This document shows, in pieces, positions 7,636 to 55,625 of a DNA stretch of 64,000 bases. The number at the start of each line of letters is the position of its first letter. Position 1 is the stretch's first letter. The notes under the pieces were generated by a model, which worked only from the letters and a program-made list of their open reading frames with translations, was not told where the DNA came from and did no database searches. The translations under genes and the position numbers were made by a program. The DNA lies in assembly GCA_021292105.1 (NCBI GenBank), contig CM037867.1:13902928-13966927 (forward strand), given 5' to 3'. The DNA is from Anadara kagoshimensis (Eukaryota > Mollusca > Bivalvia > Arcoida > Arcidae).

Positions 7636-10600
7636 TGTGTGTATGTGTGTGTGTATGTGTCACTGTGTGCGTGTTCAACAACTGAATTGTTATTTGAATA
7701 ATTGTTTTAATTCAAAAGATTATCATAGAAAAGTACTTATTTTCAGAGTGTGGTATAGCGGCATGTTTTCTTATTCTGACCCTCCTTTATTTTCCAAGAA
7801 AACCACCAAAGCCACCAAGTAAGTCAGCATCAGTAGAACGAGTTGACTTTAAGGAAGCATTTCAAGGTATCCTGAGGTAATGTAAAATAAAACCAATAAC
7901 TATATAGCAAATTTCAAACTGTCTTTTTAATCGTTGATGACTCAAGCAATGACGCCTGTGTAATCAAAACCAACTACGACAGGGCATTGCTACAAGCATC
8001 ATTTCTAGATTTTTGAATAGTTAATTTTACGTTTGCATATTAGTCTAGACACTGCATTAAATTTATAGGCACAACACTGTATTCAAACTGGTCTGGCAAC
8101 AAGTGGTTCCTTGGTAAAATCTGTAAATCAAAAACAGATACATGTATACTAATCAATGTCCGAGTCACAATAAAAAAAACAAAGTAAAATCATTGAAACT
8201 GACAAGTAAGTATAAACACGTGAACGTCCACCATGGAAGTTAAGCCGGGTGCTCCGGAAAGGTAAGCACCTCCTGTTTAGCTAGCTACACCCGTCACGTG
8301 TGTAATCAAAATTGAGTAAAAAGAACATTGACGTATGGGACGTCAAATATAAAAAGGGCAATCCTGGAGACAGAGACATCAAACTTATCAAAAATACTGT
8401 GATGACGGCGATAAAATTATTTAATTAATTTAACTACAAAACAACAACACAGCATCTCAAACTATAAAAGAATTTAACAAGTGGGTTGTAGAGAACTCTG
8501 GAGAAGCATTGATTGAAGTGTCTAAACAAAACAAAAACGACATAACACAAATAGGTTTTGTTGCGAGAGATTCCACAACAAACTGTGTATAAACATTTAA
8601 ATCAAAGAATTGAGTTGAGTAATGGTGTTAACGTTCCAGTCAAGAATATTTCACTTTTTGAGACCGTTAAAGGCGAAGGTGAAGAAGTTTTGCCTGTGTA
8701 ATGCGCTGATGGCATTGTACAGCAATGTTCTTTATTGTGCCACGCCTAACGTGACACGAGACCTCGTTTATTTTAAGTTCCCATCCAAAAGAACCGTGAG
8801 TTTTATTTCGTAATGTCACGACCTCCCACTTACGGAGCGAGCACTCTACCAACTTAGCTACCGTAGTGGCATTTAAATTAAAGATGAAATAAAAATAAAT
8901 ACATTCCATAATTAATAAATCTTATGAAAAGTAAGTCCTATAGAACTTTCTTCTTTTTTATTTTTCATTTCTGTAGGAATAAATCCTTATGGTTACTTGT
9001 CTTTGGTTATACGATCCCTAATGGTATATTTTTCAATTGGGGAGCGGTTATTACTGTGATATTAACTCCAGTTGGAGTAGATCAGGTATGGATGATATTA
9101 TTATTATTATTATTATTAATTTTGCAAATTTCAACATTTTGTTAAAAAAAATACAAAATACAAAATAACAGTAGTTTCGATCAAACAAAAACATAATGGG
9201 CCGTGTTTAAAATGCAATGTCAAAGGCAAAAAACTTTGAAAATTGACAAATCCAGTTTAGCGAAAATTTTTACCAGGGAAGTGAGGCTGGGTGCTCTTAA
9301 GGGTAAGCACTTTCTTTTTTGGGATATTGTAAGGGTAGATTTAGCAAGGTCTTTAAAATCTGTATTGCCGTCATGACAATATTGTTGACAAGTCTCTGTA
9401 GCCAAGATTACTCTGGCTATATTTACGTCCTGTAAGCCAATTTTCCTTTCATTTCAAATCTGATTACACATAAGACGTATGTAGCTAGTTACACAGGCGG
9501 CGTTTTACCCTTCAAGAGAACCCCGTTTTCTTGTTCTGGTAGAAAGAAATGGGTTTAACGTTATTTGCCAGTTTTCAAAATTTTATCTTTGCTCGGGGAT
9601 TGTGAGTTAGGCATGGATTGGTATATTTGTTTTTGACTATTTGTGTCGAACATGATTTTAGTACATCATATACATATAATCATTTGTAAAGTATTGATTA
9701 GATATATACACGGATAATGTTTGTCTGACTTTAGCAAGGAGTTCGAGTATAGTACCCTTGACAACAATATACTATTGGTTTTTTCATGATTGGTACTATA
9801 CTCTGTGCACATGTATCTTTTGTTACAACAGTAAAGATTCACGATGCAACATCATTTTTATCAAATGTTTAGTTTATAATCACCATGATGTTGAGGAGTG
9901 ACATAAAATTAAAATAGCAAATGGTTAAATATTTTAAACTGGTATAATATGTAATTTAAACCCCTGCTGGTGGCTGGTGCCCCGAGGATATCACAAACTC
10001 AGTTGGCAATAATTTCGTATTATTGTCAGAAATATACTATAATTGTCTAAGTTTCCTGCAAGTTAAAATTTGAAATTTCTAAAAAAAACTAAGGTATACT
10101 ACCTCATGCAAAGTATTTCCTTAGCTTAATTTGGTAAAATATATTTTGGTCCTTTGGGTAGCTTTTCAACATCTTCAAAATAATTTTGGTCCAAGCACTG
10201 CTGGTGGGGAATTGTGTTCCGAAACGGCTGTCTAGTGCTGTAAATATTAAACTGGTATAATAACATTAAATCTACAGTGTCGTGTGATGTACTAAATGTA
10301 ATACTGTAAACGTATTTAATTTTGCGTGTATTTTTTAGAGGTATATGAAATTTAAACATAAGAGAGGTAGTTAGTTGTTTACTGTTACTCTGATTTCCCT
10401 CACCAATTTCAAAACTGACCACCTCGATATAAGTGAAAAAATTGACAGTAACGTCAACCATACGTCCAAATGCGATTTAACTAATGCCTACTTAGTACTG
10501 CAATGTTCGTTATATTTCTTATATCATTTAGGGAGAAGTGGGGATCATTGCAGCAGTTTCAACGGTTTTAGGTATAGTGTCAGCCATAGTAATAGCAAGG

Positions 10601-13034
10601 TATATAATTACTGTTATTTTAATGAAGATGAAAAAACAACATTGACCTGTTTGCCTCAACCTATTATAAGAATATCCATATACATTCGTCAAGCCAATAT
10701 ATGGGTAGGGTTAAATTTGCGCAGTTATAGCATTACCAATGCGTATTTCCAATGATACAGTCGAAATAAACACTGTACATTATTGTACTGGTCAATTATA
10801 AAAATTTAAGAAGGAATTAACGAATGAATTAATTGAATTTATAGTCTACTAATGGCATAATTTATTCATATCAAAGAGGTCAGTTATTGGATAAAGGAGG
10901 AAACTGTAGTGAAAGTAAAAGCACCAAACTTCGACAAGAGAACTGACAAAATTTTTCACACGGGGATCTGTCAAGAGAGGCATTCTTACCTAGGCGGTAA
11001 GAGGCCATGTAATCCGGAAGCGCGCATTGGATAACTCTGCCATCTAGGACCGTAGTAGGATTCGACCCTAGATAGTAAGAGGCGTTGTGCACTTTATACC
11101 ACTCGGCTTCAGAGGACCCAGGAATTGAGAGACTACTGACTTTAATGAATTTGTATTATGACAACAATCTATTGATAAACATTATTACTGGTATATGTAT
11201 ATTGTTTTTTAGATTTTCGGATATATTTATGAAACATATGAAGATTACACTGGTGTCACTGTACATTATTGGCTTAGGAGGCACTGTGTGGTTTATAATT
11301 ATTGTTAATAAAGTTATAGATTTTCAAATTGGTACGTATAATACAAAACATGACAATTCTTCTGAATGTTACTGTAGTGACGCAATAGTCTACTATTTTT
11401 TAGAAAATCAGTTTCAATCATTCTCGGCGATTTGGTGCCGAAGGGTGTGCGTTCGACCCTTATAGTTGCGAAAAATATTGACTTTAATTCTCCTAAATTC
11501 AGATATAATTCTTTCTAATTTCACTATTTTTATCTGATTGAATTGTGATGAAAATTGGTCGACAATAGCCATTTCGTCCTTCTTATAGTTTGTTTCGGTT
11601 AAAGGACACTACAATAACCAAACATCGTAAAGTGTTCGGGGGGGGGGGGGGGGGGGGTGTCTAGTCACTTGTGATGAAGGACACTTTCTACTTTGCCATA
11701 TTGAAGACTTCAATATGACTGACTAGATGAACAACTCCGAATAAATTGAAAATGACAAGTGATTTCCTCGACATTTTTGTCCTTTCATTTTTCAAAACCA
11801 TTACTGTTGTTTTCTTTGGCTCCGACAACTGCTTGCTATATAAACAAAATTCTTATTGCATTCCAAATATTTATAATCTAACCCACACCATTGGTCGATA
11901 TGTTTTGTTTACAGTACAGACCTGACGAAAGTTTAACACTCATGAGTTAACGAAAAGGAGTCGAAGCTTGGCTGCTAGAGATAACCAGTTGTCCAAAAAG
12001 CTCCCGGATGATAGATAACAAGTATCGAAAACTTGTCGAGAATAAGCTGAAGAGGGGTCGAGATTAGTCGCCAAATCGGCACTGATGGGTTAGCTTAGTG
12101 TTTAACTTTCGACAGGTCTGTATTGATGTTACTGAAAACTAAAAATGTCAGTAATCACACACAATTTGTAACAAATTTAGCTTTTCAACATCTTCAAAAT
12201 AATTTTGGTTTCATAATTGTGGCCCAAGCACTACTGATAAGGAATTGTATTCCGAAACGGCCGTCTAGTGCTGTAAAATTAAAACTGGTATAATATGTAA
12301 ATTATATATATTTAAATATATATATATCACTATTAATTTTTAAGATGTTTTTATTTTTTCAATAAATCAAATATCAAAAAATGTATTGTAGGTTATCTCT
12401 GGGCTGCTTCAATCATTCTAACAATGGCAATAAACGGATCAAATCCGTTGTTTTTCGAACTAGCATGTGAAACAGCATATCCAATTGCAGAGGGTATAAC
12501 GGGAGGATTGATGACATGGGTAAACAACATAGTTGGCGGGATATTTCTACTAATGTTGCTGATTCCAAATATTGGTAAGACGTTAGCGTTTATCATACAT
12601 CCACAGAAACATTTTTGAGTGAGGCTTAATGTTTCAGTTTTCTTTGTTGTTCCAATTAGAGGTGATCTATAATACTGGAATTATGATGTTTACAAAACTC
12701 GAAAACAGAAACTTGTGTATTAATCACATGTCCTGCCAACATTTTATTTGTGTGTGTTGGTATTATTAATAACAGCATCAGAGAAAAAGGGGCAAACCGA
12801 AGATCTTGTACTCACCAACCACTATCTTATTTGGAACAAAATTCTCAAACTTTTGACTTTTTTGTTTTAGGTACAGCCTGGATGAATTACTGTCTAGCTG
12901 GAGGAGTTGGTGTAGGGCTTCTAATTTTATTCATGTTCAAAGAAAGTTATTCCAGAATAAATATGGATATAATAGTAGAACCACCAGAATCGGTGGAGAA
13001 TCCAGTGGGTATAAAAGCAACCGAAGAGGAATAA
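1711..13034 (+). CDS. SLC49A4: SLC49A4 (DIRC2)-like lysosomal MFS transporter, gene 2, complete, 12 exons
   Basis: Exons: 1711-1999, 2653-2743, 3264-3427, 4528-4594, 5602-5636, 7113-7166, 7747-7876, 8977-9085, 10532-10599, 11213-11331, 12392-12574, 12871-13034. All introns are GT-AG and phases join to 1473 nt (490 aa plus stop); human SLC49A4 has 478 aa. An in-frame TGA at 1705-1707 fixes the start. Order: acidic tail with E9-K-E-S-L13-I14 (lysosomal dileucine type), RRWW at 31-34, NTWGPI signature, ATWFPPNERATATA after TM4, a luminal loop with four N-glycosylation sequons (exons 4-5), a cytosolic loop with PRKPPKPPSK, then TM7-12 including GYTIPNGIFFNW, FFELACETAYPIAEGITGG and the FKESYSRINMD tail. 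The family is a lysosomal multi-span carrier; mammalian SLC49A4 is reported as an H+-coupled pyridoxine exporter. That substrate is family knowledge and is not shown here. No broken residues seen. Confidence 0.93.
2012..2250 (-). repeat. Family A copy, gene 2 intron 1
   Basis: Reverse copy containing the core and both flanks; it begins only about a dozen bases after the exon 1 donor of gene 2. Confidence 0.85.
2756..2929 (+). mobile_element. TIR mini-element, family B, copy 2
   Basis: Nearly whole copy with both inverted ends. It begins 13 bases after the last base of gene 2 exon 2, so it landed right beside the splice donor (GT at 2744-2745). Confidence 0.75.
3580..3645 (+). repeat. CTT/TTC microsatellite
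   Basis: About 20 CTT units after CCTCCTCC, gene 2 intron 3. Confidence 0.95.
3841..3895 (+). repeat. ATT microsatellite
   Basis: About 18 ATT units in gene 2 intron 3. Confidence 0.95.
4143..4470 (+). mobile_element. tRNA-headed SINE, copy 1
   Basis: Head carries an A-box-like TAGCTTAATTGGTAGAATGC and a B-box-like GAGATTGAACC. The body has CTCGATATAAGTGAAAT and the tail is GACGTCAAACCCCATTCAATC. This head and tail layout is typical of mollusc SINEs. No T-run terminator or intact tRNA fold, so it is not a tRNA gene. Confidence 0.82.
4905..5195 (+). repeat. Family A copy, near full length, gene 2 intron 4
   Basis: Starts TTGCAAGCCGAGGCC, a worn form of the first hairpin, and runs through the core to the TAGTATG end. 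Confidence 0.85.
5858..6115. mobile_element. Mini-element with ATACCCCC/GGGGGTAT ends
   Basis: Begins AATACCCCC and ends GCGGGGGTATAAC, with GGAC-rich tandem bases (GGACGGACGGACACACGGAC) near the right end. Ends of this kind are common in mollusc repeats. Gene 2 intron 5. Confidence 0.6.
6148..6245 (-). repeat. Family A fragment, gene 2 intron 5
   Basis: Core with the GGTGCTCCGGAGG part only; strongly diverged. Confidence 0.65.
6658..6765 (+). mobile_element. TIR mini-element, family B, copy 3
   Basis: Shortened internally; both ends (TACAGTCCAACTT and GGTTTGTCTGTA) remain. In gene 2 intron 5. Confidence 0.65.
7225..7453. mobile_element. TIR mini-element, family D, whole copy
   Basis: Inverted ends of about 37 bp, CATATnnnAAACAACATTGACC on the left and GGTCAATGTTTTTTGACAATAT on the right. 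Gene 2 intron 6. Fragments lie at about 10633-10735. Confidence 0.75.
7603..7660 (+). repeat. GA then GT microsatellite
   Basis: GAGA tract followed by GTGTATGTGT tract, just 87 bases before gene 2 exon 7. Confidence 0.95.
8131..8412 (-). repeat. Family A copy, gene 2 intron 7
   Basis: Good reverse copy reaching the CCATAAA-type end (here CGATAAAATTATTT). Confidence 0.85.
8617..8872 (-). mobile_element. tRNA-headed SINE, copy 2
   Basis: Reverse copy; the head (complement of GAGCACTCTACCAACTTAGC) is close to a tRNA A box. In gene 2 intron 7, 105 bases before exon 8. Confidence 0.82.
9262..9325 (-). repeat. Family A fragment facing the next copy
   Basis: Short reverse piece (ACCAGGGAAGTGAGGCTGGG and GGTAAGCAC) lying head to head with the diverged forward copy that follows. 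Confidence 0.6.
9335..9650 (+). repeat. Family A copy, old and diverged, gene 2 intron 8
   Basis: All segments are in order but with many differences, including TAGCTAGTTACACAGGCGGC for the core. It is among the oldest copies here. Confidence 0.7.
9933..10262 (+). repeat. Hammerhead-ribozyme repeat, unit 1 (retrozyme-like)
   Basis: Family H: unit of about 318 bp containing a 44-nt type I hammerhead fold. The family pattern is stem I GCACTA/TAGTGC, core CTGATGA and GAAA, stem II GGAA/TTCC around TTGTA, a minimal stem III and cleavage after TC. Here the fold is at 10195-10238. A full unit body precedes it, so the copy starts just after one cleavage point and ends past the next. The core is mutated. 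Gene 2 intron 8. Confidence 0.75.
11015..11125 (-). mobile_element. Possible SINE head, serine/leucine-tRNA-like
   Basis: The reverse strand reads GAAGCCGAGTGGTATAAAGT (A box) and GGGTCGAATCC (B box), with spacing typical of a tRNA head. Body not matched elsewhere in the window. Gene 2 intron 9. Confidence 0.45.
11638..11658 (+). repeat. Poly-G tract
   Basis: A run of about 20 G, gene 2 intron 10. Confidence 0.95.
11915..12122. mobile_element. TIR mini-element, family F
   Basis: 26-bp near-perfect inverted ends, TACAGACCTGACGAAAGTTT and its counterpart AACTTTCGACAGGTCTGTA, with TA edges. Gene 2 intron 10. Confidence 0.78.
12180..12300 (+). repeat. Hammerhead repeat, copy 2
   Basis: Fold at 12228-12271: stems I and II and the TC cleavage site are intact. 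One core base differs (CTGATAA). Gene 2 intron 10, 92 bases before the next exon. Confidence 0.75.
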
Positions 13035-13432: not shown

Positions 13433-13479
13433 ATAAAATAAAAATGAAAATATATGTTTCTTTCCTTGATCAATAAGTC

Positions 13480-13590: not shown

Positions 13591-13786
13591 TTTCAAAAAA
13601 ATGCATTTGTAGGTTTCATTATTCTTTATGGTTAAATTGATCATCACATTTTTACACCGTTAAACATAATACTACGTCTTTGAAGCTGCTTGAGAATCCA
13701 AAATAACTTTTTTATAGGCCGATGTTACTACCATGTATTTTTAATACTCGTGAAACCGGTAGTTACCTCTACATACATTGATTGAA

Positions 13787-15176: not shown

Positions 15177-15359
15177 AATACATAAAACGACACATATATT
15201 TTTGTTCACCTTTACGAAAGGTTATTACGCTTGATATATTCTGCAGGTACAAGATTTTGCATTTCTTTACATTAGGATTCTAACATCCTACATTTTATGA
15301 GGATCGTATTTTCAGACGTACGTATGATTTAATTTCTTCCTGATTCCTGGTGTTTTTGC

Positions 15360-15473
15360 AACCTCTTTATAAAAAATGGTTTCATAATTTTTGTCCAAGC
15401 ACTACCGATGAAAAATTGTATCCCGATACGGCCGTTCAGTGCTGTATAATTAACACTGGTATAATATGTAATC
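15360..15473 (+). repeat. Hammerhead repeat, copy 3
   Basis: Fold at 15399-15442, with several core and stem changes; intergenic between genes 2 and 3. Confidence 0.68.
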
Positions 15474-15647
15474 TGAAATGAGGTTTGCAATCTTTAATTA
15501 TGGAATGTAATCATAATAATTCATGCCGTGCATATTCGTGTATGTAAATATACAGCATTTGCCTAGGATCAGTAGGTCGTGGGTTCGATCTCTGTCCGGG
15601 TCATACAATTTGACATGCTGATTCTTCGCCTGACTCTCGGAAATCCA

Positions 15648-16493: not shown

Positions 16494-19400
16494 ATGTGTG
16501 GAAAAGAAAACCAAACTAACATAACCAATGATGCAGAAAGCACTCTCTTGTCACAACCAGCTTCCAAGGCATATAAAAGAAGATGGTGGGTAATTTTTAT
16601 TTATTGTTTCTGTGTTGGAGCACAAGGAATTTTTTATAATTCTTTTGGCCCCATTACCGAGTCGGCAGAGGCATATTTTGGATGGACAGATGGGCTTATT
16701 GGTTTATTGGCGAACTGGAGTTCTATTACGGTCTTATGTGGAATGTTCCCTCTGAGTTATTTGATACATAAGAAAGGTAATATATACAATACTAATATTT
16801 AACAGATCAGGTCCCAGCTTTATAATTATTTTTTACTAAGATTCCCCTTAACACAAATCTGGCAAATTTTCATCAGAAATAATTTTGCTGTTGTTAAGTT
16901 ATCTAAAAACATCTAGTGTCATATCACTTTATCCATGCGATCGCGGACAACCTTTTTTTTACCAATATAAGTTATATAAATCTCGTCCTTATTTACAAAC
17001 ATTCATACGCCATGAACAACCTTTAGTACATAACATGTTGATTTGTTGAATAATCATTGGATAACTACATGGATACTTTTTATATAGAAATCATCTGTCG
17101 TTGTCAACGCATAGCCAGTCATCTATCTACATCTGCCGTTGTAAACACATAGCGAGTCATCTACCTACCTATCTATCTATCTATCTATTACACTTGGAAA
17201 TTAATGATGTTGAATAGAATTACATTTTGTAATAGTTAATTTGAAAATTATTTAAACAAAGGCATGTGATATGTTTAATCCATTATGAGTCTCTCACTCG
17301 GGGCCAGTTCTCCTATAGTGTTATATGGAGTGGTATAGTAACCTCGCCTATCGGATCAAGACTATACCTCCCTAGACAACACTATAGTAGAACAGTTCCC
17401 TGTGGAGAGGTCCATAAGAGCGTAATAGTACGTTTATTTGGTAGTTATATGCGTTAAGTGCTTAATTAAATTAAAATCAGAAATAAGAAATATATACAGT
17501 CTCTAATGAATGATAGATAACTTCACTACAAATAAAGTATAATTATTATAATGCATGTTGCTTGAGTAGGTTACAAAACAATCCCAATGTAGACCTGTTT
17601 GTAAATGAATACATAACTGCCATTTCCGTAAATACATTTATTGGAATGGTAATTTGAATAATTACATGTGTATTTATATGCGTGAAGGGTTTGAATCAGA
17701 AATACACATGTTTAAACAATTTCGTATAAATTTACTGCAGGTTCAGTATAATTATTAATGATACATGTTACAAGAGTAAGGTTCACAATGGTCATGTCCA
17801 TGTTAAACAATGTAGACCTGTTTGTAAATGAATATATCTGTTCTGTAAATAGATTTATTGAAATTGTAATTAATATCATTACATGTGTAGTTATATGCGT
17901 GGAAAGTTTTAATCAGAAATATTAGCAATTTCTAATGAAGGGTTGATAAATTTTCCGCAGGTTCAGTATATTCCTTAATGAAACATGTTACAGGAAAAGG
18001 TCCAAAATGGTCATGTCCATGGTAAGCAATGTAGACCTGTTTGTAAAAGGATGCATAACTGTTCTGTAAATAGATTTATTGAAATGGTAATTGGTAAAAT
18101 TAAATGTGATTGAAAATTTAAATCAGTGGTATTGACTTAAAGTATTTTTATTATAGATTTAACATTACTAGATTCATCAATGATATATTTGCTGCTAGGT
18201 AAAATCTTAAAATCCTCAAAAACTCCCTGATGCAAAACATTTCTTAAGTTCAATTTAGTTTATATATTTTGGTCCTTTAGATATTTTTCAACTCCTTGAA
18301 AATAAAATGGTTTCATGATTATTGTCCAAGCACAAGTGATGAGGAATTGTATTCCGAAACGACAGTAAAGTGCTGTAAAATTAACGCTGGCTATATAATG
18401 TGTTGTAGGTATAAGATTCACTATGGTCATGTCCATGGCGTTATCACTTTTCGGAGCAGGTCTGCGATGTATACCAAGCACAATCTATATTGCTACGTGG
18501 TATGTATAAAGTATATGTGAACTTTGTGAACTGCATCACTAAATCTTACCTCATCAAATACAAACACTCAATCGATGTTCAAATGCCAATCTTAAAAGCT
18601 AAATAAGAACATTGAAAACTGGAAAATGAAGTTGCACACGTAGAGCTTACCTGAGCAGCGAAACTGCGACCTCGCACGCTGATTAATAGGTCCTTACGCA
18701 AATCTGGTAAATGTAAAAAAAAAGATTGGTCTATAATGTTCTTTAAAGATAAGACCACTACGACAGCAGAGTCGATAGAATGCGCGCTCCGTATGTGAGA
18801 GATTGTTAGCTTGAACACCGGCCGCGGTCTTACAAAGACTTGAAAATAGGTAGTGACTGTTTTTTTGCCAAACACTCAGTCTCATTTAGAAATGAAAGTA
18901 ACGGGAATTGACCTTAAAAAACGAAGTCCCGTGTCACGGCTGGCGTGAACCGTCAAAACACTCCCTGTACATTGCCATGTGCTTTCTACAACTTCACCTA
19001 TAGCTGATTTCATCTCGATATCAATGTACTATTCTTGACTAAGACGTTAAACCCCACTCACTCAAATTAATCAATCTTACAAAGATAGCATTTGTTGTTA
19101 AATCAATCAAAACGTTCTGGAACTAGCGTAAATGACAAGTAGGTGAAGTAAATGTTTAAACTTAAATAGCTTCATTGAAGCTTATGTATAGAAAGAAATT
19201 TATTAAAATATCGAATCATAAGATCCGATAAGGAATACAGTGACACATATAGACACTCATGCAAAGAAAAGTTGTTTCAATATAAAATTACAATTATGTT
19301 AATTGGGATTCAAAACATTATTTCCAACTCCACATATTGTAACTTTGGACCTGCGATGACAAAACACTGACAAAAAGTTAAAACATACACCATCACCTTT

Positions 19401-27400: not shown

Positions 27401-30400
27401 CTTGGAATCGGTGAATTTAAATTAATTCTATAATAAGAACTTTATGAATCGATGTTAGTTTTGTGTTAATTGGTGCCACTAATCAATCTTCTAGTGTCGC
27501 CAAATTTATAATAATTATAATCACACTTGAAAAATCATATGTGAGGATTCGTTAGTCAGTTTTCGTATATATGTAGATGATATGATAATTTTTTAATGTT
27601 TTATATTGTCAAATATTTTATTACTGATAGTAATGGTAAACAGAGATGAAATCGGAACGGATATCATGTACCTGATGTATATAGGTAAGATTAACACATG
27701 GGTTCCATGGCATGTACGATATTTTAGCGGTTTAGTCTTGCACGACTGTTTAATATCGGCTCTGAGTGGTTTAGTGGTCTAAAACGCGCTGACAGATCAC
27801 AGTGATTCAAAAAGTCTTAGTACCAATCCTCACCGTACAAATATTTGTGTGATAAAGTTTATAAGTTCACGTTCCAAATGTCTGTGATTTTCATTTTCCT
27901 CCTCCCACCATGAACTGAACAACATAAGTTAAATAAAAAACAAACATGCTAATCCATGTCCGAATCACAATCCAGAGGCAAAGTAAAAAATTTGGAACGG
28001 ACAAGTTGGGTTAGACACGTGAACTTCCACCGGGGAAGTGAGGCCGGGTGATCCGGAAGGGTAAACACCCCCTGTTTAGCTAGCTACACCCGCCACGTGT
28101 GTAATCAAAATTATGTGAAAGGGACATTGAACTATGAGACGTCAAATATATCCAGGGCAATCTAGGACACAGACATTAAACTTATCAACAATGCTGTGAT
28201 GACGGCCATAAAACTTTTTGACTTGTGGGCACTACATTTGTGCTCAACTCTCCACTATCTAATTATCCATTCGGTTCTAATTGTTTTGTGTACTGGTTTG
28301 CAATTAATGTTTTCTGCAAAGTACACATTTTAAGGTTCAAATTGCATTCTTTATTACCTAATATACCTTCTTTGTCCATTTACCTTCATCCATTCCAATT
28401 CATAATGCTTCAAGCTCAACTTTTTTTATGATCTTTATGATCTATGTACATACAAATACGATTTCGTTTGACAAGTTTTGCAACTCAGTTAATTACTTCC
28501 AGAGTTTTTCGTGTTTAATGTATGAAACTGTCCGAATTGTCTTAGTTACAACTAAACTTAACAAATTGCTTAAACCCAAACTTTTGATGCTTTGATATCA
28601 ATTCATGTTCTTAATCCTGATAGTCATCTAAGATTAATTTGTCTAAGTTCAATTCCAACCCGGTCAAATTAAAAAAAAACTAAATTAAGCCAATTTGATG
28701 TTATGGTTTACGTCATTCATTATGTATCTTCTTAAAATTTTTAAAATACATGTTGGTGCTTCTATGTTTCTCATTTCAACATCTTAAATATTTGTATTTC
28801 CACAATTTTTAGTCCGAGAACTCAACATTTTATTCCAATACGGTCGTCTGGTGATACAAAATTAAAACATTATAGCAATAGTAACGTTTTTCGTTATTTT
28901 TTGAACATTATTTTTTTTTTAAACGTAGTACATTTATTTTGTATTTGATTCTTTTATTAATTTAAATAATATTTAATTAATATTTATTTGCATAATTTGA
29001 TTATTTTTTTAGTATGTGGATTAATTGCTGTGCTCTTTCTGGCTATTGTGATATATTTTCCTACCAAACCACCAACAACTCCGAGTAAAACGGCATCATT
29101 AGAAAGAGAAGATTTTGGAAAGGCGCTAAAATCTATGCGTGGGTAAGCGTTAGTTTTATATTTGTCTGCCATAAATATATGTTTTTGATTCTATGAATAA
29201 TTAATACAGAGAGTGTTTGATATTGATAAAACAAATTTATTTTGTTGTTTTAATGTGTTTATACAAGAACAAGTGACAAGCTGTTTAAAATGTATATGGT
29301 TCGATATGAGGCACTTTAAAGAACCATACGACAGCGCTCGACATTATTGGTCCTTTTGGGTATCTTTTCAACATCTTAAAAAGATGTTGGTTTCACAATT
29401 TTGGTCTAAGCTCTAATGATGAGGAATTTTTTACGATACGACTGTCTAGCGTTGTAAAATTAAATTTGGTATACTAAATAATTTGACGTAAAATTCAGTG
29501 AGCGTGTAAAGTGTGAAGTTTCTATATGTAGTAAGTGATCACAATTCAATTTGTCTTGTCTTTTTTAATTTTACCATTTTTAAAATCTATATATATATAT
29601 ATATATATAGTTACAAAAACATCATACTTATCAAAGACACGTGGTGACGTCGATAATCTTGCTTTTGCGGAAAACAGTATTCGTCTACGTCATCTAATAC
29701 CCTACGTCATCTAATATCCTAATATTTACATTTATTACAACCTTTTTATATTGTTACTATATAGATGATCTTCATCATAACTCTACGTATCGATTGAATA
29801 AAAAGTTCTACTTATGATTTAAAAAGCAACTTTAGAAAAAATATTTTCAGCAATATACAGCTATGGTTGATAATATTTTGCTGTACATTACCTAGTGGTA
29901 TCTATGCTAACTGGTCATCGGTTATAAATGTAGTTTTAATACCCGTGGGCGTCAGTCAGGTATGGACAGTTTAATTTGTTTCAAAACATGCCTTTATTTC
30001 ATGTAACATTTTTTTACTTCTAATAATTGAATATTATCGGTTTTTATGTTTTATATTAATTGAAAAAACAATTCAATGCCACGACAGGCGAGAAATTGTG
30101 AAACCCTATATACTATGAATATATTCTATCTACTGATGTCTAATATAGGAGATATCCTGGATAAAGTTTAATAGGCGTTTACCAATGCAATATATTAGCT
30201 AAAATAAATTGTATAACCATTTAGTCAGAATACTATTATAGACTTCAAGTACTATACATATGAATTAAATGCAAAGGTCGAAATTATTTAAACATTATCT
30301 ATACTTGGTGACATCTCGATATAAGTGTAATGTTCTTCACGTGGTCGTACAACTGCATACAAGCAATCAATATGCCTATATTTAGAATATGGTGAAATTT

Positions 30401-34557: not shown

Positions 34558-34592
<35 letters not shown>

Positions 34593-36765: not shown

Positions 36766-37605
36766 CATAGATAAATAATAAAATACAAATGAATAGAAGA
36801 CAAGACTGAATATAAACTCAAATAATCTGAATTTGAATTTTATGGAAAAAAACTAGTGGGGTGGTTATAGTATTATTAGAGGGGGGAATCGAGCAAAACT
36901 AGCAAAATTTCCACTTCAGATATCGTTAATTTAATTCCCAATTCAATCCACAGGGTGAGGCAGGGTAATTATCCCTATGCAGCACTCGGCCTCAATTCCA
37001 TGGTTACAGAACACTGCTTGATGAATTTGTCAGTTTTTAAAGTTTTTGGATTGCAATTTGCACTTAGATGGGTAATTTTGTTTTTAGCATATCCTTAGAA
37101 AAGGGTAGCTATGTTAGGAGAGTCGGTGCAATAAAGTGAAAAAAAATAAATTCGTAAAATGGACGAGGAATAGGATCGTATAATAAATGTTGTAATATAA
37201 CCAAGCTATGTTATTGAATATTGATTCAAACAAAATGATATATGTTTTATTTTTTTTGTATTTTCATATCGTGAATTGGTATGAGCATGTTATAAGTGAA
37301 TAATGATACATTGAAAAGTAATACTTATGGAAATGTGAAATTTTATATACGAGAGAATCATGATTTTTTTAATTTCAAATAACATATTTCAATAAGTTCT
37401 AATTTCAATTTAATTTGTTTGGTGAAAAAAGCATTATATTTTAACGATTCTATATTTGTACAATGATATGAATATTCTGATTAAGTAGGATTGTTTTTAC
37501 CCCCTCCCCCCATTGCACTATATCCACGTCACTGGTATTTTATTATACGCCAAAAGTTTTGAAATTTATATTCGGTGGACAATCTGTAAGCCTCTAGATA
37601 AAATT

Positions 37606-37890
37606 TTAGTTTCACCGTTTTGGTTTAAGCACTAATGATGAGGAATTATATTCCGAAACGGTCGTCAAATGCTATGACTGTTGTAAAAATCAACACTGGT
37701 ATAATATGTTTTTTTCAACAACTGAACCGGTATTTTTGCTGGTGGATGTTTCACCGTGGATATCATAAACTCAGTAGGCAATACTTTTATTGTCAGAAAT
37801 ATACTATTGTCTACATTTGCTGGTATTTGAGATCCTCAAAACTAAGGTATACTCCCTCATGCAAAATATCCCTGAGTCAACAATTTATTT
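37606..37890 (+). repeat. Hammerhead repeat, copy 7, ribozyme first then body
   Basis: Fold at 37629-37672, followed by about 200 bases of unit body (GATATCATAAACTCAGTAGG, TGTCAGAAATATACTATTG). Confidence 0.7.
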
Positions 37891-38045
37891 GCAAGCAGTC
37901 TGGTACGTTGTACAAAGTCCGCGTGGTGAGAACAACTCTACCATAGCGTATTAAATGCTATCAAAAATACACCATAAGCAGGAGAAGCAGGTATATTGCT
38001 GCATAGAAATAGTTTCAAATGTAGCCGTTCATGGACATTATAATT

Positions 38046-39999: not shown

Positions 40000-41084
40000 G
40001 GGAAGTGAAAAAACTCTTTAAGTTCAAGAATAAAACATGTTGAGTCTTAATTAGTTGAAAAATAGTGAGAAACGGTGTTTTATGACACTGACAATAACTG
40101 GAATTCTAACTAACAAAATTTAACAATCTGTTCTACTTCCGATTCTCTTTGTAACTTACTTTACACTTCCATCAGTTGGTACAGTACGAGAAGGGTAAAT
40201 GGTTCCGAGTTTTAAATTGTTGATTTTATTATTCAACTTACGGTTTTTGTTTCGATGTTTAATCCTATGACTTATCCTAAAATTCCATTTTTTCTTTCTG
40301 TATTCAGTCACATAGGTAAAATGTAATAAACACACTAAACTTTATTACAGGAATGTCAATATCATGACATAATTTTTCAATTTTAATGCTTTTTAAATAG
40401 CTTTTCATAAAAGTTCGTGTAAGTACTCTTTGGCTACATATTTGGCCGTTTATGAAGATATTTCAATGTGGATGTAACAAATTAACATTTTGAAGCCGGA
40501 GGTTCGACTTATTTTAATAGCAAATTCCATATTTTCAGGTGTTTGATCTGATCGTGAGATAAGGCTTCCTACTACTACATGCCCTTTCCCTATCAATTTA
40601 GTGTAATTTATGGCGCAATAGGATACAGTATCTTACCTTATTTGATATTTGATACTCCCAGATCGTATTTTCCCTTTCTATATATTAATATATTTTCATA
40701 TCAAGGTGATACATTTGTATAAAAATATGGGCGTGATGGATTTAATAAATATATACATCGTTTAGAAACAATATAAATGCTGCGACACGAAAATATACTT
40801 TCCTTCATCAAATCTATAAGCTGACAAAAAATATTTCCGACATTCAACGAAAGCAGAAGCTTAAATTTCGGAATCATATTCCAAAGAGTTTAAAAATTAC
40901 AAAAAAGGTAAGAGACCATTTTCTTTATCCGGATTAAGATTTATATTTTAAAATATTGTCATTGCAAATTTATTCATTACATTTTAAATTTTAAAATTCC
41001 TCGAAAACAAAGGTTTGCTTAATCGTTTGAAGTGTTGCCCAAGGTGGATTCGGTTCTACAATTTTTCACATTTCCAAATTTTAA
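40000..41084. other. Gene-free intergenic stretch
   Basis: AT-rich with no recognised repeat, RNA or coding signal. Confidence 0.6.
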
Positions 41085-41160
41085 AAATATTTTGCTTTTC
41101 ATAATTGTGGTCTGAGTACTAACTGATGGCCGTATAGTGCTGTAAAATAAAACAGATCTA
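41085..41160 (+). repeat. Hammerhead repeat, copy 8, stem II lost
   Basis: CTGATGGCCGTATAGTGCTG shows a deletion that joins the core directly to the stem III region. Confidence 0.6.
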
Positions 41161-41469
41161 GTAAGCGATGTTTAGCAAACGCGGAGGCCAAACATGCAGA
41201 AAATTTCCAGTGCAAAATGCTGGCTTGCTGCGTAGATAAATTTGTAAGGAAAATATGATCGACTACATTTAGAAGAAGACCGTGTTGAAATCAAACTCGG
41301 TGCGTTATAAACTGAAACAGCGCTTAAATGGTTACGAAAACATAACATTCAGACGTAAAATAATTGTTGCCGCTGATAAGTAAAATAGTTAGTAAGGTAA
41401 ATAGATTCCGTGTACCAAACTCGGTCCTCCTTTATGTCAAATGTATATGTTTCATACAAGTTTGAACAC

Positions 41470-41890
41470 AGTTATGGTTTCATAAGTTTGGCCCAAGCAC
41501 TAGTGATGCAGAATTGTAATTCGAAACGGCCGTCTAGTGCTGTAAAATTAAAACTGGTAAAATATGTAATTTAAACCCTTAAGCCGATATATCTTCAGCT
41601 GGTGGCTGGTGCATCGAGGATATCACAAACTCAGCAGGCAATAATTGTCAGAAATATACTATTGTCTATATTTGCTGCTTGATAAAATATGAAATTCCTA
41701 AAAAACTCTCTCATGCAATGTATTTCCTTAGCTAAATTTCGTAAATTACATTTTGGTCCTTTGGGTATCTTTTCAACATTTTGAAAACAATTTTGGTTTT
41801 ATAATTTTACCCAACCACTACTGATGTGAAATTGTATTTAAAAACGACCGTCTAGTGATGTTAAATTAATATTGGTATAATATGTAATTG
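41470..41890 (+). repeat. Tandem hammerhead dimer, copies 9 and 10
   Basis: Two folds, 41497-41540 and 41815-41858, in the same orientation exactly 318 bases apart, with one full unit body between them. This is the head-to-tail arrangement that rolling-circle or circular-RNA templated retrozymes leave. Both cores carry changes; the first keeps CGAAACGGCCGTC and stem I, the second keeps CTGATG and the cleavage site. Confidence 0.78.
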
Positions 41891-43625
41891 TAATTGTTAA
41901 TACGATGGTGCATTATATGTCCCCGTTATGAAGCCGAAATAATAATAATGCTGCTTTGATACAAATATTTTCACTCATTGTTTCGTATTTTTGTTTTTTA
42001 TACATATTTATATATAAAATGAGGACAATCATTTTTTTCGATATGTACAACCGAAAAATTACTTTTGAGCACCAAAATGTCTGCCAATTATTAGATACAA
42101 CATTGTCAATACAAGATCGAATATCCTAGTCGATACACTTTGCCTATTCAAAACTGTTGTTATGGGGTCTCCAAGGTAATTGCCCATGCCTGCTTAATGC
42201 TATTTAATTACTATGTAAAAATCCTGTTTGTCCATCCGAAACAAAAAAAAAATATATATATATAGTACTTCAAACAACCATATGAAATATTGGATGCAAG
42301 TTCAGTATAAGGTCCCGTGCCGCAAATACCGATTTCAAATCTGCCAGACATCTGCTACTTACCGACTAATTACTTTTTTGACATTTACACTCAATAATTG
42401 TTAAAGTACAAAATCGGTGTTATACTTGGTTAGCAGTATCTCACAGCGTTCTTGTAAATTTGTCTAGCTATAACTTAGATTATCTCAAAGGATATAAAAT
42501 GTTTCTCTGTACAAAATAATTATAAGTAATATATCCTATTCAATCCGTACTCAGGATGGTTTAGCGTCCTTGGATGATCCCGATTTTCTGCTAAACTCCC
42601 TGTCAGTAAATCAGCCACTAGTAATTGGTTCAGTTTCATATATTATTTGACATATTATTCGCATGAAATATAATGTCAGTAGTTAGGCTAAAAGTTTTAT
42701 ATAACCATGATGAAAATATTTTATCAACTTTTTTTGTTTACAGCTGAATGGTAAAATATACCAATAAAAGTTATCATTTTGTAATCATCTACCAATCAGA
42801 CTGCAATATGCTAATAAGGATAAAAAATTGAGACAGCGTATTTCAACGTGTGTGTTGTATTTGTTTGAGTTGCAGCGAAAGTGTACTCAACTATTAAATT
42901 TGATGATGCGGACGGGCGGGATTTAGTTTACTTTCTTTTTTCCAAATACCAGAACTAATCTTAAGTTTGCAATTCTCCGATCTGAGTTTCGTTCTGGTTC
43001 ATTTGTTTTTATGAAAGTAATGGCTGTGTTTTCCCAATATTTTTTTTCTAAACGCTAGGAGATACTGATACTCAAAACTTTATCTGTTACTCAAATCAAA
43101 TATTAGCTCCGTATCTATATGCATTTAGAAAAATATCCGGAAAACTAATTAACGCCCTCCAAATTTTTGTATTACATTATATAGAATATGAAATTGCAAT
43201 TGGATTAGTAGACCCTGGTGCCTATTAATTTTATGCAACTTTTGGTATTTCAGTTGCCAATGATGGCGATGTTCATATCTGGTTTAGAATTTTTGTTTTG
43301 TAACCGACATCTTTTACTTGCACGACACAGTGCTTTTAAAAGCATTTGCGGAGGGAGTGTAACACTGTTGACAGTTACAAATGTTCATTTTATCATTCTG
43401 CTTTAGCAATAAATTTGTCTGTTTAAACCTATTGTGTTTTCAAGAATTAATTCTTTGTTATGCTTTATTTCTTTATTCAGTTTTTTAATAGGGTCTTAAA
43501 TAATAGATATACTAACAAATATTCGTCAAAATTAAATCAATATTGCAGAAGAAAAAGAAATTTAAAACTGGCGTATTTTTAGGCACATTTTGGATTTTTA
43601 TAGTACAATGTTAAAATATATCTAT
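41891..43625. other. Gene-free intergenic stretch
   Basis: AT-rich. One 62-aa open frame at 43218 shows no domain and is likely chance. Confidence 0.6.
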
Positions 43626-43939: not shown

Positions 43940-43971
<32 letters not shown>

Positions 43972-49344: not shown

Positions 49345-49520
49345 CGATTTCATACGTAGCGTGTATATTTAGCTAAACAGGAGGCGCATGTCCTTCCGGA
49401 GCACTCGACCTTCACTTTTCTGGTGTTTCACTTTTTAAATTCATTTGCCAATATCAAGCTTTTTAAATTGCATTGGGATTGTTTTCTGGAGATTGATAGT
49501 ATAATAGTTTTTGATTATCA
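49345..49520 (+). repeat. Family A copy spanning the start of the 3.25-kb duplication
   Basis: The duplicated block begins inside this repeat, at CTTCCGGAGCAC (about 49393). The second copy starts at the same point, 52643, so a family A repeat marks the breakpoint. Confidence 0.75.
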
Positions 49521-51439
49521 AATACATATCTGAATATCTCTTGCTTCTATGATACTGTAGTTAAGAAAAACAATCATTTCTGAATTTCAAAATAATTGAT
49601 GTTCAGAACCTTTTAACAAGTCACAAGTTTCAAACAAATTTAATTTTATAATTGAAACGAAATCCAATTTAAAAAATAATCATCCGCTGTTAAAAATGAT
49701 TAATTATCAAATTACATATAATACCAGTTTTAATTTTAGAGAGCGAAACTAAAATTTAATTATAATATAGAAATTAACATAATTAATATATCTTTCTATA
49801 ATATTAATTTTGATTCTTTAAATTAACTAGAAACAAATCTAATTTGTAAAGATCGTGATTTATAGAATTTGTCAGTACTGTATTATATTGCATTTAGTTC
49901 AGTCATTTTTATCTGTCATACTTAACTATGTAAGACCCATGGATTTAAGAAACACAATTTAAATAGATACATTGCAATAGCCAATGTAACCAAGGGATAT
50001 AAAACAAGGGAATGATAAAAACATCTAAACATAAAAAGAACATAACCGAGTACAATAATTATAAAAACGTATGGTTGGATTAATGAGACTTTATCCTAAA
50101 TGGACCGTTTTGGATTTTCAAAAATACATGTCTAAATATTCTTGCTCGTAAATAAAAAGTTATAGTGTAATAACGAAAAATGAGTATGTTTTCTGGTTTT
50201 TGATATTTATATTAAATTGTTCTCCGAGATCGACCTTTGACGTTATTATTTCTGAAAATGTTTTCAATACACAATCTTTACAAGTCTTAAAAAATGTTCC
50301 TCTCGAGATTAAATTTCGTATTTTCTGTTCGGGGAAATTAAAACTGACTGCTTCACATATAACTTATGCTATATTTCAACATTAAATAGACTCACTGCTA
50401 TGTGTAGCTCCGTGCGTAGCCGAAACGCTTTTAGCTGTACTGCATGGATTCAAATCCCAACCGGATATATTTTATTTATTATGTTATTGATTTTAAATTT
50501 TATCTATCTTAAATACATCGACTCATCTAATATTTCTTTAAGACGTTATGATTTAGTGAAATGCTAGAGCCCGGATTATATGCCTTGACAATAGTCTGTT
50601 GTTTTTGATATGGCTGACAGATACTTCAAGACAATGAAAAACATATCTATATTAATGTTGATTTATTGTTTGGTAAAACAAGGTTTATTTCCATTAGAGA
50701 TTCAACTATTTGCGCAGTTGATTGTAAATAAATTCGGTGGGTTTGGTACCTCTAATAGTTTACTAATGATACTATAATGACATCACAATCCTTGGCATTA
50801 ATCTCCTTGTTTACATTTTTGTATTGTTTGATGTTCTCGAATGAAATGTTTGTTGCAATTAATTTGTTTTTCAATATTTTAATTTCCTTTTTGGAAAGAC
50901 CTAATGCACGGATATATCAATATTCAATTATATTTAAAAAATGTTTAAAAACTCAAAACTCCCACATGCTTTATTAACACATCTAACATAACAAAATCCG
51001 TTTTACTCGTTCACTCCGTCGACAAATGACTAAAATGCATTATGTAGTAATCAATGTGCGCTTGTAACTCAACTCTATAAAAATGGATGCAAGGGAAGTT
51101 ATATTTTGAACAAGCAGGAGTGGCTTTTTTTATTTTCATGCTGTATTTTATTGTAGTGATTTTGACAGTGAAAGACAAACTTTATAGCGTATTGTTTTAG
51201 TTGTATTATTCGTGCCGGATGTTTTAAACATAAACAGTTCACCCTATTGTCAATGTTAACGGTTTAACTTCAGCTCGTATAAGTTCGTTTGAATACAACG
51301 CCGAACTGAAAAAAATGATTGAAACTAACATATGGATAAGTATGTTTGTTTTTAATACATAAACAGCAGCGAGAAAATATAAAAGATAGAGCGAGGTGAA
51401 ATAACTGTATTTGTCAGTTTCAAAGTATATCCTTAGCTA

Positions 51440-51590
51440 ATTTTGGTAACATATTTTTGGTCCTTTGGTTATTTTTTTTAATATCTTCACAAAAATAATT
51501 TTGGTGCAAGCACTACTGAAAAGGTTTTGTATTCCGAAACGACCGTCTAGGACTGTAAAATTAAAACTGGTATAATATGTAATTTCAAAG
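51440..51590 (+). repeat. Hammerhead repeat, copy 11
   Basis: Fold at 51510-51553. It lies in copy 1 of the 3.25-kb duplication and has lost about 17 bases (a TTTCATAATTTTGG segment) that its twin keeps. Confidence 0.7.
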
Positions 51591-52338
51591 TTTTTACATG
51601 GCGTTGGGATTTGGACACGGTAAAGTATGTTTGTTTTTGATTTATAAAAACGTAGCGTATGTAAATAACACATGTGTGCTTAGTTTCTTTTTAGCATTTA
51701 GCAATATTCTTAAATTGCTTATTACTTTTTCCATGTAATGTACAAATCATTGAGCACGTTTTAGTTTAAAGTATAAGGTATATACAGATATTAACTGTTT
51801 CATGAACTTTCAGGCTTTCTCGTGTACATACGTGTTGTTATTCATTGTTTCTCAATATTTTGCAATATCTTTTGAAGTTTACAATGTCATATAAAATATC
51901 AGCGAGCACGTTTTGGTTTAAAACATAAAGATATTAAAGTATATAAAATAATAAAATGGTAATTAAATGACATTTGAAATTCTATTACCAAATATATATT
52001 TTGGTATCTCTTTGTAATTGATATACAATTTGACTATTTAGTAATTTTGAGAGGTTTATTTGTAGCAATTGTCAGACAGACATTCTATCCTTTCATATAT
52101 ATCATCTATATAGGCCATGTATAGTTGATGAGAAAAATAAAATCCAAAATGAATCTGAAGAAGGTGGAGTCGATAAAATTCATCGTGTATCTCTACGCTC
52201 TTCCAAACTTAAAATTTAATACAAACATGTTAATATGTATCAATACAAATTTAATTTACCGCACGATGATTTAAAATATACATATTACCAACTCAACCTA
52301 CCCACACATTCCTTAAGATCTAAGCGCAATTAATAGAG

Positions 52339-52339
<1 letters not shown>

Positions 52340-52372
<33 letters not shown>
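52340..52372 (+). repeat. AT dinucleotide tract, copy 1
   Basis: TA repeat shared with 63499-63521 in copy 2, where it is shorter. Confidence 0.9.
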
Positions 52373-52374
<2 letters not shown>

Positions 52375-52642
52375 AGATGTAAACTTTTCTTAACCGAGTG
52401 TCACTGCCTGGTATTCTGGCCGTATCTGCATTTTGATTTCTAGGAAAAACCTGATAGTGCTGCTAGTATTTGCAGGTCTCCTTAAACAGTTTATACATGG
52501 ACATCAATCAGTCTCTTAAAAATAAAATAAAAATGACATGTTTTGCAAATTGAATTATGCTTTAAACTTTTACCTCGCATTATATATGACAAACAAGTCA
52601 ATCTTTCATAAGCAATACCTTGGCGTACACCAATTGGAGACG

Positions 52643-55625
52643 CTTCCGGAACACTCTACCTTAACCTTTCTGGTGTTTAACGTGTTTAAATTCATTTGCC
52701 AATATCAAGCTTTTTAAATTGTATTGGGATTGTTTTCTGGAGATTGATTAGTATAATAGTTTTTGATTACCAAATACCAAATATTACCAAATTACCAAAT
52801 ACATATCTGAATGTCTCTTGCTTCTATGATACTGTAGTTAAGAAATACAATTATTCTGAATAATTGATGTTCATAACCTTTTAACAAGTCACAAGCTTCA
52901 AACAAATTTAATTTTATAATTGAAACGAAATCCAATTTAAAAAATAATCATCCGCTGTTAAAAATGATTAATTATCAAATTACATATAATACCAGTTTTA
53001 ATTTTAGAGAGCAAAACTAAAATTCAATTATAATATAGAAATTAACATAATTAATATATCTTTCTATAATATTAATTTTGATTCTTTAAATTAACTAGAA
53101 ACAAATCTAATTTGTAAAGATCGTGATTTATAGAATTTGTCAGTACTGTATTATATTGCATTTAGTTCAGCCATTTTTATCTGTCATACTTAACTATGTA
53201 AGACCCATGGATTTAAGAAATACAATTGAAAATGGATATATTGCAATAGCCAATGTAACCAAGGGATATAAAACAAGGGAATGATGAAAACATCTAAACA
53301 TAAAAAGAACATAACCGAGGACAATAATTATAAAAACGTATGGTGGGATTAATGGGACTTTATCCTAAATAGACCGTTTTGGATTTTCGAAAATACATGT
53401 CTAAATATTCTTGCTCGTAAATAAAAAGTAATAGTATTATAACGAAAAATGAGTATGTTTTCTTGTTTTTGATATTTATATTAAATTGTTCTTCGAGATC
53501 GACCTTTGACGTTATTATTTCTGAAAATGTTGTTAATACACAATCTTTACAAGTCTTAAAAAATGTTCCTCTCGAGATTAAATTTCGTATTTTCTGTTCG
53601 GGGAAATTAAAACTGACTGCTTCACATATAACTTATGCTATATTTCAACATCAAATAGACTCACTGCTATGTGTAGCTCCGTGCGTAGCCGAAACGCTTT
53701 TTAGCTGTACTGCATGGATTCAAATCCCAACCGGATATATTTTATTTATTATGTTATTGATTTTAAATTTTATCTATTTTAAATACATGGAATCATCTAA
53801 TATTTCTTTAAGACGTTATGCTTTAGTGAAATGCTAGAGCCCGGATTATATGCCTTGACAATAGTCTGTTGTTTTTGATATTGCTGACAGATACTTCAAG
53901 ACAATGAAAAACATATATATATTAATGTTGATTTATTGTTTGGTAAAACAAGGTTTATTTCCATTAGAGATTCAACTATTTGCGCAGTTGGTTGTAAATA
54001 AATTCGGTTGGTTTGGTACCTCTAATAGTTTACTAATGATACTATAGTGACATCACAATCCTTGGCATTAATCTCCTTGTTTACATTTTTGTATTGTTTG
54101 ATGTTCTCGAATGAAATGTTTGTTGCAATAAATTTGTTTTTCAATATTTTAATTTCCTTTTTGGAAAGACCTAATGCACGGATATATCAAGATTCAATTA
54201 TATTTAAAAAATATTTAAAAAGTCAAAACTCCCACATGCTTTATTAACACATCTAACATGACAAAATCTGTTTTACTCATTTTTTCGTCAACAAATGACT
54301 AAAATGCATTATGTAGTAATCAATGTGTGCTTGTAACTCAACTCTATTAAAATGGATGCAAGGGAAGTTATATTTTGAACAAGCAGGAGTGGCTTTTTTG
54401 ATATTCATGCTGTATTTTATTGTAGTGATTTTGACAGTGAAAGACAAACTTTATAGCGTATTGTTTTAGTTGTATTATTCATGCCGGATGTTTAAACATA
54501 AAGAGTTCACCCTATTGTCAATGTTAACGGTTTAACTTCAGCTCGTATAAGTTCGTTCGAATACAACGCCGAACTGAAAAAAAATGATTGAAACTAACAT
54601 ATGGATAAGTATGTTTGTTTTTAATACATAAAGAGCAGCGAGAAAATATAAAAGATAGAGCGAGGTGAAATAACTGTGTTTGTCAGTTTCAAAGTATATC
54701 CTTAGCTAATTTTGGTAACATATTTTTGGTCCTTTGGTTATTTTTTTTAATATCTTCACAAAAATAATTTTGGTTTCATAATTTTGGTGCAAGCACTACT
54801 GAAAAGGTTTTCTATTCCGAAACGACCGTCTAGGACTGTAAAATTAAAACTGGTATAATATGTAATTTCAAAGTTTTTACATGGCGTTGGGATTTGGACA
54901 TGGTAAAGTATGTTTGTTTTGGATTTATAAAAACGTAGCGTATGTAAAGAACACATGTGTGCTTAGTTGAATACTGTTTCTTTTCAGCATTTAGCAATAT
55001 TCTTAAATTGCTTATTACTTTTTTCATGTAATGTACAAATCATTGAGCACGTTTTAGTTTAAAGTATAAGGTATATACAGATATTAACTGTTTCATGAAC
55101 TTTCAGGCTTTCTCGTGTACATACGTGTTGTTATTCAGCGTTTCTCAATATTTAGCAATATCTTTTAAAGTTTACAATGTCATATAAGATATCAGCGAGC
55201 ACGTTTTGGTTTAAACATAAAGATATTAAACTATATAAAATAATAAAATGGTAATTAACTGACATTTGAAATTCTATTACCAAATATATATTTTGGTATC
55301 TCTTTGTAATTGATATACAATTTGACTATTTAGTAATTTTGAGAGGTTTATTTGTAGCAATTGTCAGACAGACATTCTATCCTTTCATATATATCATCTA
55401 TATAGGTCATGTATAGTTGATGAGAAAATAAAATCCAAAATGAATCTGAAGAAGGTGGAGTCGATAAAATTCATCGTGTATCTCTATGCTCTTCCAAACT
55501 TAAAATTTAATACAAACATGTTAATATGTATCAATACAAAATTTAATTTACCGCACGATGATTTAAAATATACATATTACCAACTCAACCGACCCACACA
55601 TTCCTTAAGATCTAAGCCCAATTAA
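52643..55625. repeat. Segmental tandem duplication, copy 2, left part
   Basis: Second unit, about 3250 bases downstream of the first. A short insertion of ACCAAAT repeats near 52770 and a few indels distinguish it. Interrupted at 55625 by the 7.9-kb TIR element. Confidence 0.9.
54690..54870 (+). repeat. Hammerhead repeat, copy 12
   Basis: Fold at 54793-54836; twin of copy 11 through the segmental duplication. Confidence 0.7.

Follow-up and report, generated by a model that had tools for sequence, protein, structure and literature searches.

The 64,000-nt stretch of the Anadara kagoshimensis genome analysed here (the window; assembly GCA_021292105.1, contig CM037867.1, positions 13,902,928 to 13,966,927, forward strand) contains twelve dispersed repeats that share a 44-nt hammerhead ribozyme segment. 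The best explanation is that they are, very probably, dead copies of a non-autonomous animal retrozyme of the kind without long terminal repeats (non-LTR), with a unit of ~339 nt that would be copied from a fixed internal start by a reverse transcriptase (RT) supplied in trans.

A type I hammerhead in the family sequence

The majority sequence of the twelve window copies is a perfect minimal type I hammerhead, with a stem I of 7 bp (AGCACTA/TAGTGCT), a stem II of 5 bp closed by a 3-nt loop, the core CUGAUGA...GAAA, and a loop-free helix III formed by the 8-nt palindrome ACGGCCGU; the cut is expected after GUC. Hammerheads of type I are recognized by the core CUGANGA...GAAA, an NUH cut site and three stems with the open end in stem I, which agrees with the Rfam model RF00163 (Hammerhead_1). 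These features are all present in the majority sequence and in 2,081 exact genomic copies of the 44-nt ribozyme, and in none of the twelve window copies taken singly.

Searches of the whole 1.115-Gb assembly (36 contigs) found the intact core CTACTGATGA-N13-GAAACGGCCGTC at 4,308 places, the exact ribozyme at the 2,081 places mentioned and a 21-nt word spanning the cut at 5,065, the reversed-pattern control being zero for each; these counts take in recent duplicates as well as tandem arrays. The majority sequence satisfies a strict hammerhead descriptor that finds no match in 150 dinucleotide shuffles of the window, on either strand, and none in the real window, as one would expect were all its copies broken. 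A fold arising by chance was rejected on the basis of the shuffles and of the exact genomic copies with their empty control. The GGCC variant of helix III is the one in the 5,065 words, while a GACC variant occurs at 881 places; the full palindrome is found in 52 of 55 intact ribozymes, a figure that is biased because the palindrome is part of the search word, and the counts of the two variants make the fairer comparison.

The initial annotation had read a type I hammerhead from the family pattern, and this reading stands, apart from the stem II of 4 bp that it assigned. It would have been refuted by covariance models matching no copy together with a genomic consensus lacking the core; the genome shows the opposite. 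RF00163 aligned to two intact genomic array units over the entire model (positions 1-45 of 45), its loop-free helix III included (28.1 bits, E 7e-5 each), yet this score lies under the gathering cut-off of 34, and four genomic loci gave no Rfam match at the curated cut-off. In the window, a search at the curated cut-off found nothing, and even at E <= 10 its whole length gave no hammerhead. Searches of short stretches matched two of the five copies tried. The match to 12228-12271 was at full length and scored 21.0 bits (E 0.0043 for 131 nt), that to 37629-37672 was weak (12.7 bits, E 2.5), and there was none to 10195 nor to 41497/41815.

Genomic units and the anatomy of their insertions

The genome holds units of this repeat either single or head to tail, the latter with intact ribozymes, in line with the term retrozyme-like that had been applied to the family. 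In an array at C1:310270-311966 (L004:532-2228), five 339-nt units with 98% matches follow one another, and the exact 44-mer is present in four. Among multi-unit copies the ribozyme spacings range over 168-378 nt, and 11 of the 20 examined are 337-339 nt; the norm is therefore ~339 nt, and not the 318 nt of the window pair as the initial annotation had expected. The five-unit array starts at nearly its own end point in the unit and contains about a whole number of units, which would fit copying round a circle; it is the sole array so examined. At C2:54496756-54508457 (G000), five GACC-variant ribozyme words on the minus strand are regularly spaced at ~2.92 kb and may mark a larger tandem array with a retrozyme copy inside it. 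Each of two exact words was searched in IMG/VR with zero matches.

The anatomy of the insertions was determined on 87 independent copies, obtained from 119 rows by merging places fetched twice on the basis of shared adjoining flanks; the rows exclude nine loci that repeat the five-unit array, as well as groups lying no more than 60 nt from the end of a locus. The reference used to extend each copy was an array unit reaching beyond the ribozyme. The 3' end lies 34 to 44 nt past the cleavage site in 66 of the 87 copies (all 66 at +36 to +43; 62 of 81 in the fixed range in a first round), with a median over all copies of +38 and an interquartile range of 36-40, though the alignment reference runs further. 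The tail has the sequence ACTGGTATAATATGTAATTT. The 5' ends are scattered over the unit, with an interquartile range of 111-264 nt upstream of the cut and 8-12 ends per 34-nt bin across the first 272 nt, followed by 5 and 2; this picture stays the same under a second gap scoring. Most copies (75/87) are single, while 12 span two to five units. The flanks are slightly richer in AT than the loci (0.71 vs 0.68).

The twelve copies in the window

All twelve occurrences of the 44-nt segment lie on the + strand, between 9.9 and 54.9 kb, and the repeat is much longer than this segment, with upstream sequence of up to one whole unit:

9897..10262, + strand: copy 1, whole unit (body 9932-10194) followed by a degraded hammerhead at 10195-10238 and the tail
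12178..12304, + strand: copy 2, 5'-truncated; hammerhead 12228-12271, the best of the window (43/44 to the family pattern, with one core change)
15349..15476, + strand: copy 3, 5'-truncated; hammerhead 15399-15442, 7/9 core positions kept
18184..18403, + strand: copy 4, 5'-truncated, 220 nt; hammerhead 18330-18373, stems I and III broken
28731..28867, + strand: copy 5, strongly degraded; hammerhead relic 28807-28859
29341..29486, + strand: copy 6, 5'-truncated; hammerhead 29410-29452, with a 1-nt deletion
37591..37938, + strand: copy 7, hammerhead 37629-37672 and, downstream of it, ~270 nt of unit body; has lost its 3' end
40984..41162, + strand: copy 8, strongly degraded; hammerhead 41105-41145, without stem II
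41461..41892, + strand: copies 9 and 10, head-to-tail pair; hammerheads 41497-41540 and 41815-41858, spacing 318 bp
51419..51588, + strand: copy 11; hammerhead 51510-51553; candidate 9-nt target duplication TTTCAAAGT (weak, overlaps element sequence)
54688..54871, + strand: copy 12, the copy 11 insertion within a 3-kb segmental duplication; hammerhead 54793-54836
52974..53009, - strand: possible tail-only fragment (nhmmer E 1.5e-4)
49706-49740: second possible tail-only fragment, segmental duplicate of 52974-53009

The twelve copies listed by the initial annotation were all found, and they go back to 10 or 11 insertion events, because the copies at 51510 and 54793 are one insertion that was duplicated with ~3 kb of its surroundings (49393-52336 and 52643-55628, 95% identical) and because the pair 41497/41815 is probably a single insertion. 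The head-to-tail arrangement of this pair, also noted initially, holds over 102 nt with a period of 318 bp and 77% likeness. A covariance model built from the twelve copies recovers all of them at E <= 3e-6, with the next match no better than E 0.97; given that it was trained on the same copies, it is informative solely on the absence of other near copies.

A whole unit between two ribozyme positions is present in copy 1, whose 5' part starts near the cleavage site of the preceding unit (AGTGACATAAAATTAAAA at 9897), and in the pair, and copy 7 keeps most of one on its downstream side; the remaining copies are shorter pieces. Six of the twelve copies (five events) end at +36 to +41. In four other, more decayed ones the similarity fades at +18 to +30, whereas the first member of the pair and copy 7 continue past the tail into the unit body. 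On the 5' side the copies begin roughly 10 to 267 nt before the ribozyme. That each copy departs from the fold was confirmed: one or two of the nine core positions are changed in all ten aligned copies, the two left out being the worst, and damage is heavy in those at 28811 and 41105. Divergence from the majority sequence is 62/440 in the ribozyme and 46/330 in the tail, and higher, 105/400, in the 40 nt upstream (gaps included). Equal divergence in ribozyme and tail is expected of dead copies that decay after insertion.

The common orientation of the twelve copies was considered as a property of the family and rejected, since 88 collapsed genomic places are not clustered by strand (48/87 neighbours alike, p 0.19).

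Proposed copying mechanism and its alternatives

The copies hold an uncut ribozyme and ~38 nt of the next unit, which means that the template was not a finished linear monomer, as this ends at the cut; it was an uncut multimer or a closed circle. A fixed 3' end together with scattered 5' ends is the pattern left by an RT that starts at one site and then falls off. The mechanism that we propose would begin with the transcription of head-to-tail units into multimeric RNA, in which neighbouring hammerheads may pair via the palindrome and cut as a double hammerhead. The predicted folding suggests this pairing: the dimer of the intact ribozyme is a double hammerhead (-34.5 kcal/mol), while the best fold of the monomer (-12.3 kcal/mol) is not a hammerhead, and the prediction for the copy at 12228 is alike. 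Part of the RNA would remain uncut or be ligated into circles, and the RT in trans would initiate at a fixed site ~38 nt beyond the ribozyme, read back across it and halt at random. The inserted DNA would retain the ribozyme and the tail, and its 5' sequence would be lost. Transcription, cleavage and circle formation are proposed steps, deduced from the sequence of the repeats.

A Penelope-like element would be the likeliest supplier of the RT, since RTs of this group are known to initiate internally, downstream of a hammerhead. Such initiation has been shown for the anole Poseidon element, where it yields a tail of 30-40 bp in the genomic copies (PMC11167929), and rotifer Penelopes have a tail of 31 bp (PMC3846280). 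The fixed 3' end of the present family is comparable to a tail set in this way. The A. kagoshimensis genome has 50 GIY-YIG matches and one open reading frame (ORF) with RT and GIY-YIG domains (L125).

Several observations weigh against this mechanism. The 3' end falls outside the fixed range in 21 of the 87 copies, 17 of them ending earlier (at 8-33 nt; the 21-mer itself reaches +8) and one each at 48, 71, 325 and 377 nt, the last two extending into the body of the next unit. The 87 copies were all taken from a single contig, C1, at the places listed first there for two exact ribozyme patterns. No compensatory changes were found among the window copies, in which covariation is at or below that of shuffles, and the predicted circles of two window units are no more stable than shuffles (z 0.85 and 0.14). 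Target duplications are scarce: L009, with a perfect flanking duplication of ~28 nt, is the sole clear case among 68 copies tested, and duplications of at least 8 nt flank three copies against 0.78 expected, where permutations reach up to 4 (the mean shared flank word is 3.69, against 3.14 in permutations, with a standard deviation of 0.26 and a largest permuted mean of 4.00; 68/81 copies used). According to PMC11167929, ribozyme cutting is dispensable for the insertion of the anole Poseidon, and arithmetic from the same source places the anole RT start ~85-92 nt past the ribozyme cut, against 38 nt here. On the side of the partner, nine of ten GIY-YIG loci scanned lack this ribozyme within ~1.5 kb, a 901-nt stretch close to where one long GIY-YIG ORF has its 5' end contains no hammerhead, and no autonomous partner joined to the ribozyme or the tail was found among the few loci examined. 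The tenth locus (L123) has a copy in apparently opposite orientation, a neighbour for which chance can account.

An alternative that has to be taken seriously, if as a less probable one, is that the template was a ligated circle of the self-cleaved monomer and not an uncut multimer, or that the partner RT came from a long interspersed nuclear element (LINE) and not from a Penelope-like element. 5' truncation is equally typical of LINEs. Three of the 87 copies (L072, L025 and L051) and window copy 1, at 9897, start at most 4 nt from the preceding cut, possibly by run-off at a cut 5' end; such starts are few and were judged post hoc, and 5' ends at the cut site were dropped as a general pattern, three of 87 being too few. 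Circles are the accepted intermediate for animal retrozymes (PMC7229834). A linear monomer, ending at the cut, cannot alone yield copies that reach 38 nt beyond it, and the present data do not separate a circle from an uncut multimer.

A further reading, which is unlikely, takes the repeats for what is left of the pseudo-LTRs of an autonomous Penelope-like element in which an ORF once followed the tail, the short units having arisen by deletion of that ORF. Penelope-like elements are reported to have a minimal helix III of this type (PMC7761336), the GIY-YIG matches and the ORF with both domains are present in the genome, the anole ORF starts inside the ribozyme (PMC11167929) and solo pseudo-LTRs are reported in rotifers (PMC3846280). 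However, apart from whole-locus duplicates, the only sequence shared by the copies right after the tail is the unit's own body (92 copies, 81 independent), and the longest open frames in the 450 nt after the tail are no longer than those before the copy (median 56 aa for both; 73/87 tested). The spacing of the ribozymes is too short for an RT ORF, no RT (+ GIY-YIG) ORF between pseudo-LTRs was found in the copies examined, and the nine GIY-YIG loci that lack the ribozyme likewise speak against such an element. An ordinary satellite DNA that resembles a hammerhead by chance and was spread by recombination is extremely improbable and already contradicted. Arrays do exist and the window copies score below the Rfam cut-off, but 75 of the 87 independent copies stand alone at dispersed sites, their 5' ends vary while most share one 3' end, thousands of places keep an intact core, and the strict descriptor never fits shuffled sequence.

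The reverse transcriptase relic of the window

The initial annotation had mentioned a Penelope RT relic of the window in connection with the ribozymes. The relic, at 38058-38909, is a broken gene on the minus strand, opposite to the ribozymes, and the link was rejected, as no ribozyme of the window belongs to it. One piece of the relic matched the Penelope-type ORF of this genome with RT and GIY-YIG domains (BLASTP E 1e-5), the other piece compared reaching E 0.48; three pieces gave no RT match in Pfam at E <= 1, and one piece searched against the PDB gave no useful match. The family of the relic is very large (150 matches scored of 21,505 first-look candidates, many with equal scores and some with open frames of up to 1,067 aa) and looks like a recently very active element. 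In two places a match to this family has a ribozyme or tail ~0.9-1.4 kb away in the same orientation, which looked like a shared 3' end. Both were rejected: L130 proved to be a retrozyme copy of the ordinary kind whose ribozyme is partly deleted, and L123 is a 5'-truncated copy with unrelated sequence upstream.

Comparison with known systems

The animal non-LTR retrozymes are the best fit, and the family is a new member of them. In PMC7229834, these elements (Mytilus galloprovincialis, Acropora, axolotl) are described as type I hammerheads in non-coding tandem units of ~170-400 nt with circular RNA, the mussel having about 5,000 motifs in units of 350-390 bp. The present family shares with them the type I hammerhead, the short non-coding units arranged head to tail and the thousands of copies. 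It is likewise multicopy and tandem within the ~150-450 bp expected of such units, and the unit, being too short for an RT, has no protein-coding region. Animal retrozymes of this group lack LTRs, a primer-binding site and a polypurine tract, and their target duplications, where there are any, exceed 4 bp. It differs in its unit of ~339 nt and in the loop-free palindromic helix III, which is closer to Penelope-type or amphibian ribozymes (PMC7761336). In the open-access animal retrozyme literature searched, as far as its excerpts go, we met no description of a fixed +38 end with 5' truncation, and none of six short words of the repeat occurs in the open-access literature searched.

Minimal hammerheads in the pseudo-LTRs of Penelope-like elements and Terminons also have the minimal helix III, and their copies end in a short tail that results from an internal RT start; those of Penelope-like elements are thought to act as dimers (PMC7761336). 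The family differs from these elements in that no RT/endonuclease ORF was found attached and in the cut-to-end distance of 38 nt, as opposed to the cut-to-RT-start distance in anole, whose ORF begins within the ribozyme (PMC11167929). Plant LTR retrozymes are similarly non-autonomous retroelements that bear hammerheads; type III hammerheads, LTRs and units of ~700 bp are their own (PMC7229834, PMC7761336).

Other features of the window

The window has a low GC content, 32% by base counts. The tandem segmental duplication of ~3 kb that contains copies 11 and 12 is accompanied by further repeats: a 280-bp piece at 52354-52636 recurs at 63503-63779, and an inverted pair lies at 55621-56312 and 62797-63495. 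A second dispersed repeat, of at most ~290 bp, occurs on both strands with 81-91% likeness at 8124-8416, 27930-28213, 34270-34558, 47812-48036, 13785-13929, 31887-32030, 2008-2235 and 46515-46626. Tandem arrays are found at 22438-23616 (391 bp x 3.0) and 17585-18092 (217 bp x 2.3), the latter stopping ~90 bp before retrozyme copy 4; neither had an Rfam match in the whole-window scan at the curated cut-off. A possible Major Facilitator exon lies at 143-502 on the minus strand (Pfam MFS_1, E 0.0003, 20.3 bits; cut-off 33.4), and a transporter-like exon was judged by eye on the + strand near 12.4-12.55 kb.

Implications

A hammerhead family with more than 2,000 perfect copies lies just under the Rfam cut-off, which means that routine annotation can overlook it. 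A 2020 review describes the repeats of animal retrozymes as lacking a conserved motif that would help to deduce the autonomous partner (PMC7761336). With its thousands of core-intact copies and its sharp 3' end, the present family makes it a matter of mapping a single start site and tail to learn which RT and which form of RNA move animal retrozymes. Tentatively, and with somewhat less than an even expectation, animal retrozymes may be copied in the manner of Penelope, the RT starting at a fixed internal site, a short way past the hammerhead, on a template that is circular or uncut. In that case the tail would be the recognition and start signal that escaped earlier work, and it would name Penelope-like enzymes as the partner. 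If this is true, every new copy would keep the ribozyme and the ~38-nt tail regardless of its length.

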